This document shows positions 51,706 to 58,886 of a stretch of 64,000 nt of DNA, piece after piece. Below the pieces are notes generated by a model. The model had not been told where the DNA came from and made no database searches. It was given only the letters and a program-made list of their open reading frames with translations. Where the stretch lies: NCBI RefSeq assembly GCF_014764385.1, contig NZ_CP061714.1, forward strand, positions 496,001-560,000. The letters are read 5' to 3'. The stretch's first letter is position 1; the number at the start of each line of letters is the position of its first letter. A program made the translations under genes and the position numbers. The stretch comes from Luteimonas sp. MC1825. GTDB lineage: Bacteria > Pseudomonadota > Gammaproteobacteria > Xanthomonadales > Xanthomonadaceae.

Positions 51706-52185
51706 ATGCAGAGCAGCATGCGTATGGCCGCGGCCGTGGCCATGATCGTGGGTGTCGGCCTGTTGGCCATGGGCGACGCCGAAGCGCGGCGTGGCGGCAA
51801 GGAGAAGGGCACGCCGGCGTGGATGAACGAGAACGGTGAAGTCATCGATTCGACCGCGGTCGAGGCGGGCTACGGCGAGACCGTCACGGGGCTGGGCGAC
51901 TGGGAAGGCGAAATCACGGGCAAGCCGGCGCCCGGCAGCAAGTTCACCCAGCTCCAGATCGGCATGCCGATGAAGCAGGTCACCGACCTGGTGGGCCAGC
52001 CGACCGACCAGGGCGCCTACATCACCGCCAAGGCCTTCATCCCGTTCTTCTTCGGCGGCGACAAGCACCGCTACGAGATGGCCTACAAGGGCCAGGGCCG
52101 CCTGGTGTTCGCCGGCGAGTCGATGGGCACCGGCGGCAACCTGATCTGGATCATCCACAACAAGGACGACTCGGGCTACCGCTGA
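51706..52185 (+). CDS. Exported BamE/SmpA-like protein without lipobox
   Basis: 159 residues. Signal peptide (MRMAAAVAMIVGVGLLAMGDAEA) with no lipobox cysteine, then a linker. About residues 80-155 follow the BamE/SmpA pattern: FTQLQIGMPMKQVTDLVGQPTDQG and RYEMAYKGQGRLVFAG, ending in a strand. BamE proteins are normally lipoproteins of the outer-membrane beta-barrel machine; this one would be a soluble periplasmic relative. Preceded by AGAGCAGAAG as ribosome site. Stands alone between lptG and the repeat element upstream of pgk. Confidence 0.75.
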   Translation: MQSSMRMAAAVAMIVGVGLLAMGDAEARRGGKEKGTPAWMNENGEVIDSTAVEAGYGETVTGLGDWEGEITGKPAPGSKFTQLQIGMPMKQVTDLVGQPTDQGAYITAKAFIPFFFGGDKHRYEMAYKGQGRLVFAGESMGTGGNLIWIIHNKDDSGYR

Positions 52186-52212: not shown

Positions 52213-52243
52213 GCGCGTGCGCAGCATTTAAAGCGCGTGCGCA
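52213..52243. repeat. 11-bp direct repeat pair flanking TTTAAA
   Basis: GCGCGTGCGCA at 52213-52223 and again at 52233-52243, 20 bases apart, with TTTAAA between them. It lies just outside the first composite hairpin element, 28 bases after the BamE-like gene. Confidence 0.7.
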
Positions 52244-52328
52244 AGCTGCAGGCCCCCGGGACGAATGTCCCCCGGCCTTCGCCTATGCGAAGGCCTCCTC
52301 CTTGATTTCGCCCCGAGGGCCTGCAGCT
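52244..52328 (-). repeat. Composite double-hairpin repeat, copy A
   Basis: Outer stem AGCTGCAGGCCCCCGGG (52244-52260) with CCCGAGGGCCTGCAGCT (52312-52328), 16 of 17 paired. Inner stem GGCCTTCGC (52274-52282) with GCGAAGGCC (52287-52295), loop CTAT. The conserved internal loop is TGTCCCCC on one side and TCCTCCTTGATTTC on the other. Inverted relative to copy B. With copy B it occupies most of the 408-base gene-free stretch upstream of pgk. Confidence 0.92.
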
Positions 52329-52418
52329 CGCGTCGGGGCGTTGGCGGCGCGGTGATCCTGCGGCCCACGGAGCAGCCGGTTTTTTGCTTTCTTCCAAGCG
52401 CCGCGACGCTGACGCGAC

Positions 52419-52509
52419 GGGTGTGAATGCCCTTGGGTGCGAAATCAAGGAGGAGGCCTCCGCGGCAGCGGAGGCCGGGGGACATTCGCACCCAAGGGCA
52501 TTCGCACCC
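52419..52509 (+). repeat. Composite double-hairpin repeat, copy B
   Basis: Outer stem 52419-52443 with 52485-52509, 24 of 25 positions paired. Inner stem GGCCTCCGC (52455-52463) with GCGGAGGCC (52468-52476), loop GGCA. Internal loop ATCAAGGAGGA on the left and GGGGACA on the right, as in the other copies. Ninety bases separate it from copy A. Confidence 0.92.
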
Positions 52510-52535
52510 GCACGCAGCGCCCCGCGCCCCAGCGT

Positions 52536-52593: not shown

Positions 52594-53769
52594 ATGACCA
52601 TCCTCCGCATGACCGACCTCGACCTTGCCGGCAAGCGCGTCCTGGTGCGCCAGGACCTCAACGTGCCGGTGGCCGACGGCCGCGTCACCTCCGACCAGCG
52701 CATCACCGCGTCGCTGCCGACCTTGCGCGCGCTGCTCGACGCCGGTGCCGCGGTGATGGTCATGTCGCACCTCGGTCGTCCCACGGAAGGCAGCTGGAGC
52801 GAAGCGGATTCGCTCGCGCCGGTCGCCCTGCGCCTGTCGGAGCTGCTTGGCCGCGACGTGCCGCTGGTGCGCGAGTATCTCGACGGTGCCGACGTGGCGC
52901 CGGGCCAGCTGGTGCTGCTCGAGAACTGCCGCATGAACGTCGGCGAGAAGGCCGATGACGAAGCACTGGCGAAGCGTTATGCCGCGTTGTGCGACGTGTT
53001 CGTCATGGACGCCTTCGGCACCGCGCACCGCGCGCAGGCGTCCACCCACGGCGTGATCCGACACGCCGCGCAGGCGGTCGGCGGGCCGTTGCTGATGGCC
53101 GAACTCGACGCGCTGGCCAAGGCCCTGCACGCACCGGCGCGGCCGCTGCTGGCGATCGTCGCCGGCTCCAAGGTGTCCACCAAGCTCGAGCTGCTGTCGT
53201 CGCTGGTCGGCAAGGTCGACCAGCTGATCGTGGGTGGCGGCATCGCCAACACCTTCATCGCCGCGCAGGGCCATGGCGTCGGGGCCTCGCTGCACGAAGC
53301 CGACCTGCTGGACACCGCGCGCGACATCATGGCCAAGGCGCACGCGCGCGGCGCCGACATCCCCGTGCCGACCGACGTGGTGGTGGCACCGGCGTTCAGT
53401 GCCGACGCGCCTGCCACGGTGAAGGCGGTCGATGCGATCGCCGACGGCGACATGGTGCTCGATATCGGTCCGGAGACCGCCGTGCGCTACGCGGAGATGA
53501 TCGCGAAAGCCGGCACGGTGTTGTGGAACGGCCCCGTCGGAGTGTTCGAGTTCGACGCGTTCGGCAAGGGCACCGAGACGCTGGCGCGCGCGATCGCGGC
53601 CTCGCCGGCGTTCTCGATCGCCGGCGGCGGCGACACGCTGGCGGCGGTCGACAAGTACGGTATCGCCGGCGACATCTCCTACATCTCCACCGGTGGTGGC
53701 GCGTTCCTGGAGTTCCTGGAGGGCAAGGTGCTGCCCGCCGTGGCCGCGCTGGAGCAGCGCGGCGGCTGA
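52594..53769 (+). CDS. pgk: Phosphoglycerate kinase
   Basis: 391 residues, normal length. [18 protein letters not shown] at the N-terminus, [59 protein letters not shown] and the C-terminal [12 protein letters not shown] nucleotide loop are all family hallmarks. Converts 1,3-bisphosphoglycerate plus ADP to 3-phosphoglycerate and ATP. First gene of a pgk - DUF3857 - pyk - fba array. Confidence 0.97.
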
Positions 53770-58584: not shown

Positions 58585-58605
58585 GTGGCGCGTAGGGCCC
58601 CTGTG

Positions 58606-58698
58606 GTGGCCGTGAGGCCGTGGCGGCTCATGTCCCCCGGCATCCGCCTGGCGGCGGATGCCTCCTCCTTGACTTCCCCGCCACGGCCTCCCGGCCAC
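58606..58698 (-). repeat. Composite double-hairpin repeat, copy C
   Basis: Outer stem 58606-58626 with 58678-58698, 20 of 21 paired. Inner stem GGCATCCGCC (58639-58648) with GGCGGATGCC (58653-58662), loop TGGC. Internal loop CATGTCCCCC and TCCTCCTTGACTTC. Same orientation as copy A, inverted relative to copy D. Copies C and D fill most of the 375-base gap between fba and cysK. Confidence 0.92.
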
Positions 58699-58790
58699 TT
58701 CGGGGCTCTGTGGCTGGCTGCCAGTACCGGAGCCATGCGCGAGATTGCGGGCTGTGGGCTTTGCTCCTGGACAACGCGTACTGCGGCGTA

Positions 58791-58886
58791 CCGGGTGCCA
58801 AGGCCCTTGAGGGCGAAGTCAAGGAGGAGGCGATGGCCGCAGGCCATCGCCGGGGGACATGAGTCCTCAAGGGCCTTGGTACCCGG
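58791..58886 (+). repeat. Composite double-hairpin repeat, copy D
   Basis: Outer stem 58791-58812 with 58865-58886, 21 of 22 paired. Inner stem GGCGATGGCC (58829-58838) with GGCCATCGCC (58842-58851), loop GCA. Internal loop GCGAAGTCAAGGAGGA and GGGGACATGAG. Lies just beyond the convergent cysK stop, 92 bases from copy C. Confidence 0.92.

Follow-up and report, generated by a model that had tools for sequence, protein, structure and literature searches.

Paired composite hairpins with a conserved purine-rich internal loop: a candidate family of REPIN-like mobile doublets in beta- and gamma-proteobacteria

Integron attC sites are folded single strands with conserved unpaired bases and a variable end, and in IS200/IS605 elements both end hairpins lie on the same strand. 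The closest known kinds of dispersed palindromic repeats are the REPs, REPINs and TIRtrons, which are described in the accessible text of the related literature (PMC3733652, PMC3116915, PMC8266576, PMC6006769). In the REPINs of Pseudomonas fluorescens SBW25, the replicating unit is an inverted doublet of REPs; it is extragenic, shows compensatory change in its stems, and leaves singlets as remnants. A hairpin is predicted for it in single-stranded DNA or mRNA, and its spacer is variable in sequence (PMC3116915, accessible text). REPs and BIMEs include GTAG- and CGTC-tagged families and the substrates of TnpAREP, and group 2 REPs have a required bulge in the stem (PMC3733652, PMC8266576), and the TIRs of TIRYT genes have GGGGWSAS in common (PMC3733652), again according to the accessible sections of these papers.

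The present analysis concerns four composite hairpins, A to D, in a 64-kb window, by which we mean the whole stretch of 64,000 nucleotides of Luteimonas sp. MC1825 DNA that was analysed. An earlier note on this DNA had described A and B as composite double hairpins, and comparison of their folds with shuffled sequences confirms this at the same place: as single-stranded DNA, A is predicted to fold with -42.2 kcal/mol (z -9.2) and B with -45.9 kcal/mol (z -11.5), and 0 of 200 shuffles is as stable in either case. The conserved asymmetric internal loop of that note is found as well, with 11 nt on one side, 8 nt on the other and loop words common to A and B. Its outer stems of 17 and 25 bp have to be corrected to about 26 bp in both hairpins, the G.T pairs of the predicted folds included. 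The 5' loop word TCAAGGAGGAGGC is exact in A and B, and a search of the window yields two further exact occurrences at 58.6-58.9 kb; the 3' word GCCGGGGGACATTCG, likewise exact in these two hairpins, matches C and D with two mismatches. The loop-word matches give A, B, C and D, in agreement with the four copies counted before. What the earlier note missed is that A/B and C/D are two inverted pairs, each minus then plus, with different stems, and this is the key to the build and spread of the element. The features, in window coordinates, are:

51706..52185, plus strand: gene of 159 aa upstream of pair 1, with its stop 53 nt before the start of the pair
52239..52331, minus strand: hairpin A, left member of pair 1, with an outer stem of ~26 bp, an internal loop of 11 x 8 nt and an inner stem of 9 bp (predicted fold and covariance-model match G000:C1:548239-548331, 90.2 bits)
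52262..52276, minus strand: 3' loop word GCCGGGGGACATTCG of A
52293..52305, minus strand: 5' loop word TCAAGGAGGAGGC of A, the last three bases of which are the first three of the inner stem
52332..52418, no strand: spacer of pair 1
52419..52511, plus strand: hairpin B, right member of pair 1 (predicted fold and covariance-model match G000:C1:548419-548511, 93.7 bits)
52445..52457, plus strand: 5' loop word TCAAGGAGGAGGC of B
52474..52488, plus strand: 3' loop word GCCGGGGGACATTCG of B
52594..53769, plus strand: gene of 391 aa downstream of pair 1, the product of which we take to be phosphoglycerate kinase
58604..58698, minus strand: hairpin C, left member of pair 2, with outer-stem type II of the Luteimonas sp. 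MC1825 genome (predicted fold and covariance-model match G000:C1:554604-554698, 79.0 bits)
58699..58792, no strand: spacer of pair 2
58793..58886, plus strand: hairpin D, right member of pair 2, with outer-stem type I (predicted fold and covariance-model match G000:C1:554793-554886, 86.3 bits)

The element resembles attC sites in its fold as a single strand, its conserved unpaired bases and its variable end; unlike them, it occurs in dispersed pairs and not in a cassette array, and no R'/R'' boxes were noticed in its alignments. Unlike the ends of IS200/IS605, the members of a pair lie on opposite strands. The earlier note had offered REP/RAYT palindromes as the nearest idea. They are indeed the closest known kind, and the inverted, extragenic, dispersed doublets that mark REPs and REPINs are found in the hairpin family; two hallmarks of REPs are nevertheless missing, there being no Y1 transposase linked in the loci tested and no GTAG foot, neither GTAG nor CGTC being shared on the outer stem in alignments inspected by eye. 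With REPINs and their RAYT, as portrayed in the accessible text of PMC3116915, the element has in common the inverted doublet as a replicating unit, the extragenic location, the variable spacer, the compensatory changes, the singlet remnants and a hairpin predicted for single-stranded DNA or mRNA. It differs in that each half, rather than a short REP, is ~90 nt long and has two nested stems and a fixed asymmetric internal loop, in that its two halves usually have unlike outer stems, and in that no RAYT is linked in the loci tested and none was found in several genomes. The features shared with REPs and BIMEs are the many copies, the mostly intergenic location, the heterodimers of opposite orientation, the G.T pairs in the stems and, for group 2 REPs with their required bulge, an interrupted stem; nevertheless, the stems are of ~25 and 9 bp as compared with 6-13 bp in REPs (PMC3733652, PMC8266576, accessible sections), and the long, fixed, purine-rich internal loop is the same in beta- and gamma-proteobacteria.

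TIRtrons, in the accessible part of PMC3733652, have long inverted repeats that are sometimes self-complementary and occur in dimers, also in Stenotrophomonas. The GGGGWSAS of TIRYT resembles GGGGACAS here; with T, C or G as the next base, the 3' loop GGGGGACA agrees with it in part only. In contrast to TIRtrons, the Y1 genes of the positive genomes are not flanked by the hairpin in the loci tested, and many of the beta ones have another repeat. The self-complementary, close-set TIR repeats of S. maltophilia (K279a ORF 1152), compared by their description in the accessible text only, could be relatives. Since the element resembles REPs, REPINs and TIRtrons in doublet architecture and single-strand selection but departs from them in tag, stem design and enzyme, we call it functionally REPIN-like and not a member of the REPs or TIRtrons. 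The running text of the open-access literature, as far as it was accessible and with PMC2267715 included, yielded no description of such a family. Neither the window nor any of 8 further loci contains an Rfam 15 match that attains its gathering score, in keeping with the earlier note, which had recognised no named family; the matches at relaxed threshold (miRNA, snaR-A, isrG) lie far below gathering scores and were rejected as chance matches to long hairpins.

The family extends well beyond the window. The exact loop pattern has 18 copies in the 2.9-Mb genome of Luteimonas sp. MC1825, and a slightly shorter pattern has 22. The covariance-model search that had been proposed as a check finds 28 matches in this genome with model R1 (E up to 0.1, one of them core-only), which form 11 minus-plus pairs and 6 single hairpins, as well as copies in relatives. 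The shorter exact pattern is found in 7 of the 54 genera of the family and in 43 of its 297 genomes, with up to 64 copies and none in the reversed control; within the genus itself, 3 of 17 other genomes are positive by exact pattern. Among the matches listed, the positive gamma-proteobacteria are Luteimonas, Lysobacter, Thermomonas, Pseudoxanthomonas and Stenotrophomonas, and the beta-proteobacteria are Hydrogenophaga, Rhodoferax, Variovorax, Rubrivivax, Ramlibacter, Pelomonas, Sulfurisoma and a Rhodocyclaceae MAG. R1 gives 5 to 85 matches in each of 18 chosen positive genomes (150 candidates scored per genome), the highest number being that of the Rhodocyclaceae genome G673. In an even sample of the class, searched with stricter filters, 5 of 369 genomes matched and one of the five, G441, was without the loop; the family is therefore patchy. 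Plasmids carry the hairpin too: it is present on megaplasmids of Variovorax, and a Burkholderia plasmid typed as conjugative has a copy in which the inner stem is weak. No convincing match was found in phages. We thus have a large, strongly covarying sequence family with 5 to 85 matches per positive genome and no Rfam match. Several hairpin copies of the Stenotrophomonas type were also observed on contigs labelled Bacillus subtilis SK7B5 (L057, L067, L075, L101, L124); that assembly is probably contaminated or misnamed, and it is not counted as an occurrence in Bacillus.

Covariation was evaluated on 71 diverse copies with arms less than 70% alike, which remained of 73 selected after exclusion of L009, which lacks an outer stem, and L045, whose inner stem is long. 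Two coding-like chance matches without stems, L107 and L168, had been removed before this selection and before the count of pairs in 232 copies described below, and the copies from the SK7B5 contigs are included in both sets. Pairing is observed in 86.7% of the cells as compared with 57.4% after shuffling, double changes in 671 cells as compared with a shuffled mean of 223, and 30 of the 33 stem pairs vary on both sides. The covariation score is 0.694 as against 0.180 for shuffled columns, and it falls to 0.11-0.15 when the partner is slid by 1-3 columns; three inner pairs are fixed by the search pattern and hence uninformative. Covariation of the stems is overwhelming, and the earlier suggestion that it should hold on more copies is amply substantiated. 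The outer stem beside the loop is closed either by Watson-Crick pairs or by tandem A.G/G.A: column 24 with column 75 reads AT in 35 and AG in 31 copies, column 23 with column 76 reads GC in 34 and GA in 24, and a second set of G.A/A.G occurs at columns 18 and 20.

Long near-perfect stems are hot spots of template-switch correction, and recent copies of quasi-palindromes might be kept paired in this manner with no selection at all. Such correction would erase the unpaired loop, yet the loop is the most conserved part; nor does it predict an excess of G.T over A.C or structured copies with the same loop in both beta- and gamma-proteobacteria, and this explanation is hardly credible. The selected structure proposed in the earlier note is supported instead by compensatory change in both nested stems, by constraint on the loop at orthologous sites and by G.T in excess of A.C.

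A G.T pair on one strand is an A.C pair on the other, so that a cruciform or neutral decay would give equal counts of the two. Among 232 distinct copies scored symmetrically, the outer stems contain 198 G.T/T.G against 12 A.C/C.A (gamma 123 against 10, beta 75 against 2). The inner stems show a weaker bias of 63 against 26, and the 71 diverse copies give 108 against 15 in columns 2-17 and 146 against 30 over all 33 pairs. Where two related genomes are compared at orthologous sites, the one-sided changes in 25 hairpins are likewise 24 G.T and 3 A.C. The members of a pair lie on opposite strands, and the excess therefore cannot be explained by strand bias of replication or transcription or by strand-biased mutation. 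This indicates that one single strand is under selection, and the selected single-stranded fold is shown to be that of the strand reading AAGGAGGA...GGGGGAC. The G.T bias, orthologous sites included, is also expected of RNA and is therefore no proof of single-stranded DNA; its weakness in the inner stems is a further point against the mobile-doublet reading given below.

A strand-specific fold with one hairpin per strand would also suit a chromosomal single-strand signal, such as a hairpin for primase or PriA loading or another mark of replication or repair placed once per strand, which would need no transcription and would account for constraint in place. The patchy presence within the genus misfits a core replication signal, and we regard this as very unlikely indeed.

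The internal loop sets 11 nt (R-T-M-AAGGAGGA) against 8 nt (GGGGGACA). Its constraint in place is seen in G133 and G169, two genomes that are 88-96% identical over long matches. In 33 orthologous hairpins the loop has changed at 3 of 491 positions (plus 4 gapped), as compared with 74 of 1444 in the outer stem and 528 of 6268 in the flanks; the count is based on 16 locus pairs, from which L239 (not a true orthologue) and the misaligned L243 and L252 are excluded, and the copies entered it through an exact loop in one or both genomes, a mild bias only. The 74 covariance-model matches give the consensus [G/A]T[A/C]AAGGAGGA against GGGGGACA, many of them coming from one genome and the model itself being built from exact-loop copies. 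Since exact matching of the loop supplied most of the copies, loop conservation is overestimated in the wide sample; only the orthologue and model-match counts lessen that effect. Because the loop is fixed where the element is not visibly moving, either a factor is probably still acting on it or the copies have been co-opted by the host. The loop offers a precise handle for fishing out a binding protein.

A covarying variant of the loop, AAGGGGGA, has GGAGGAC in place of the usual AAGGAGGA with GGGGGAC. In 150 rows listed for a looser loop pattern, the bases at the two positions (5' side, 3' side) are A,G in 137, G,A in 6, A,A in 4, G,G in 1 and others in 2, so that a 5' G goes with a 3' A in 6 of 7 rows; the reversed control of this pattern gave 4 hits in 34 genomes. 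Loci passing the stem filter, most of which were collected by the A,G pattern, comprise 362 A,G, 9 G,A, 0 A,A, 1 G,G and 4 others, which makes G,A 9 of the 10 with 5' G. This suggests that A and G on opposite sides of the loop form a swappable A.G pair, although the four listed rows with A on both sides speak against strict coupling.

The unit consists of two hairpins pointing apart. All 11 pairs of Luteimonas sp. MC1825 are minus-then-plus, as are 40 of the 44 two-hairpin clusters at other loci and all 33 two-hit stretches among 40 stretches fetched, and the members usually belong to two different stem types within one genome. Spacers are variable in sequence and measure 27 to 109 nt in the nine pairs of the Luteimonas sp. 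MC1825 genome that are caught by the loop pattern; many are ~60 nt in the beta group, which includes several gamma loci. We also note that the spacer of the L062 pair includes a run of a short tandem repeat (AAGGCAC), which makes this spacer far longer than usual. In G673, fifteen complete pairs align and their similarity stops abruptly at the hairpin feet at both ends, with the exception of a few bases (GGTTAA) at one end. These many whole-pair copies with sharp ends show that the pair is copied and spread as a unit; inspection of the G673 pairs by eye showed no target-site duplication and no separate TIR. Nearly all compared copies are present in both G133 and G169, G133 being without one hairpin at three sites and having one extra hairpin at another. 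One of the G133 sites keeps part of an arm and has therefore lost the mate, so that at least some of the singles must be remnants of pairs.

The sharp ends of the doublet copies and the missing preference for the sense strand described below make spread as single-stranded DNA our first choice. In the reading that we prefer, with a slightly better than even chance, hairpins A to D are members of a widespread and apparently undescribed family of non-coding, REPIN/BIME-like mobile doublets of beta- and gamma-proteobacteria, which lie scattered between genes in many bacteria of soil and water. Two composite hairpins pointing apart, usually with different stems and a short variable spacer, make up the unit; a trans-acting protein may use the purine-rich internal loop to read the folded strand, and an enzyme other than the usual linked Y1 HUH transposase may spread it. 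Resident copies are probably either still acted upon by this factor or co-opted for some function of the host at gene 3' ends. Several observations weigh against mobile doublets: no mobilising enzyme was found, the compared G133/G169 sites include no clean empty/filled insertion site, the G673 pairs carry no target-site duplication, and a selfish repeat should decay in place, yet the loop is held, which a resident function fits better.

Gene context in Luteimonas sp. MC1825 was assigned with an in-house gene caller based on codon usage. None of the 28 copies overlaps a called gene, and the 17 sites comprise 9 convergent, 8 codirectional and 0 divergent settings. In 100 further clusters, 41 are convergent, 56 codirectional and 3 divergent, and 3 more overlap a gene call. 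The element is thus shown to sit between genes at gene 3' ends and rarely between divergent promoters. In the Luteimonas sp. MC1825 genome, some genes end 16-24 nt before a pair, which leaves no room for a terminator.

Constraint of the loop in place makes RNA action at gene ends the main rival. As a resident RNA element, the purine-loop strand would act as RNA and the pair as a two-way barrier at gene 3' ends: read-through from either side would form the far hairpin in sense just before the opposing gene, and an RNA-binding factor (a terminator, Rho or RNase system) would act on the loop. The location at gene 3' ends, the near absence between divergent genes, the genes that end closely before a pair and the G.T excess all favour such an element, as does a plasmid copy in sense orientation within an operon. 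That copy, at L352:2321-2640, has a weak inner stem and lies inside a catechol meta-cleavage operon on the Burkholderia anthina plasmid typed as conjugative; it adjoins another palindrome of C-run and G-run. The orientation data point the other way, since codirectional beta singles are 8 in sense and 13 in antisense, with no sense preference, and the G.T bias persists where both flanking genes are opposite to the hairpin (6 G.T against 1 A.C, in only 3 hairpins) and in divergent settings (3 against 0, in only 2 hairpins). The patchy distribution within the genus is a further objection.

Among the base runs near the hairpins, TTTTT occurs downstream of 7.8% and upstream of 8.1% of sense hairpins, and AAAAA on the selected strand downstream of 20% and upstream of 3.7%; we take the downstream A-runs to be the terminator that the opposing gene has in front of the unit. 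No TATAAT-like word was found in 102 nt on either side of the hairpins, and the -35-like word TT[TG]AC[AT], present upstream in 17% and downstream in 1.9%, is in our view the mate's loop in reverse complement. An intrinsic terminator was rejected for want of a T-run after the sense hairpin, and a promoter in the spacer was rejected, the spacers being unconserved and devoid of a TATAAT-like word. Together with the missing sense bias, the base runs argue weakly against a simple action in the mRNA of a neighbouring gene. We consider a resident RNA element a real possibility, though not the probable one, and it does not exclude spread as single-stranded DNA. An unrecognised element would be common to many genes of Lysobacteraceae and Comamonadaceae, should it be RNA in which the loop is read at gene 3' ends.

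An ordinary REP/REPIN or TIRtron repeat would be moved by the Y1 HUH transposase (RAYT/TIRYT) of its genome. The architecture of inverted extragenic doublets with compensatory stems and singlet remnants is the same (PMC3116915, accessible text), and the partial GGGGWSAS resemblance (PMC3733652, accessible text) points in this direction as well, as does the presence of Y1 genes in many hairpin genomes. The check for a REP-associated tyrosine transposase suggested in the earlier note turned out negative: the Luteimonas sp. MC1825 genome has no Y1 transposase gene (PF01797). A Y1 gene is present in 33 of 43 hairpin-positive genomes of the family and lacking in 10, this one included, as compared with presence in 17 of 24 comparison genomes, three of which were later found to hold hairpin copies. 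It is present in 23 and lacking in 5 of the 28 genomes reached from other loci, and none was found in the G673 assembly, which has 85 matches and may be incomplete. The loop pattern occurs within 1.5 kb of the Y1 gene at 0 of 41 loci, 38 of them from hairpin genomes and three (L169, L170, L174) from comparison genomes without the exact motif, and in 0 of 20 further stretches near Y1 genes of hairpin genomes; RAYT/TIRYT linkage was rejected on these counts. Many of 30 Y1 loci (L319-L348) are flanked by repeats of their own of the AATTGGGGTCAGATTCCAATT kind, which fit the GGGGWSAS described for TIRYT genes. Linkage to Y1 is already largely refuted, and with the GTAG/CGTC foot absent too, a Y1-driven repeat appears very unlikely.

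Other movers were considered. A MITE driven by an ISL3 transposase had been prompted by the GGTTCTTC ends in G065, where the pair at loci L179-L207 is part of a longer repeat of ~400 nt whose ends resemble TIRs (GGTTCTTCGCCCAAT.GAGGG). It was rejected: no ISL3 transposase scored over the cut-off in G000, G065, G133 or G169, one doing so in G213, and the G065 units have no matching 8-bp flanks at L182, the sole locus where both ends were found. The target-site duplication that, along with TIRs, marks MITEs of DDE transposases was seen neither in G673, which has no separate TIR either, nor at L182, the transposase search having covered ISL3. An autonomous copy with a gene between its hairpins was also rejected, as the one large gap examined (2.3 kb, G065) turned out to separate two units that flank an ordinary gene, and among proteins recurring beside the hairpin the recognisable clusters are ordinary genes or antisense frames. 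Known single-strand movers are thus not linked to the hairpin where tested. A mover other than a Y1 enzyme would mean that bacteria possess a further means of mobilising folded single strands. A more specific form of the mobile-doublet reading, which we hold to be doubtful, is that the family has its own enzyme outside the Y1 HUH family, which would recognise the hairpins through the fixed 11 x 8 purine-rich loop and copy them as a doublet across beta- and gamma-proteobacteria, resident copies being kept for a host function. In that case the loop may possibly be built of non-canonical pairs, with A.G swapping with G.A and tandem G.A adjoining, or contain a two-layer G-quadruplex of GG-A-GG and GG-G-GG.

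Two variants of the fold deserve mention. L108, L110, L070, L037, L039 and L040, from Pseudoxanthomonas, Luteimonas padinae and others, have in common a distinct stem type ending in ACGGGAAGTA/ATGAGCGGC. The beta-type copies of the Variovorax megaplasmids (L349-L351) contain an additional small internal loop of GCA against GGA between the outer stem and the core, which is readable as G.A, C-G, A.G.
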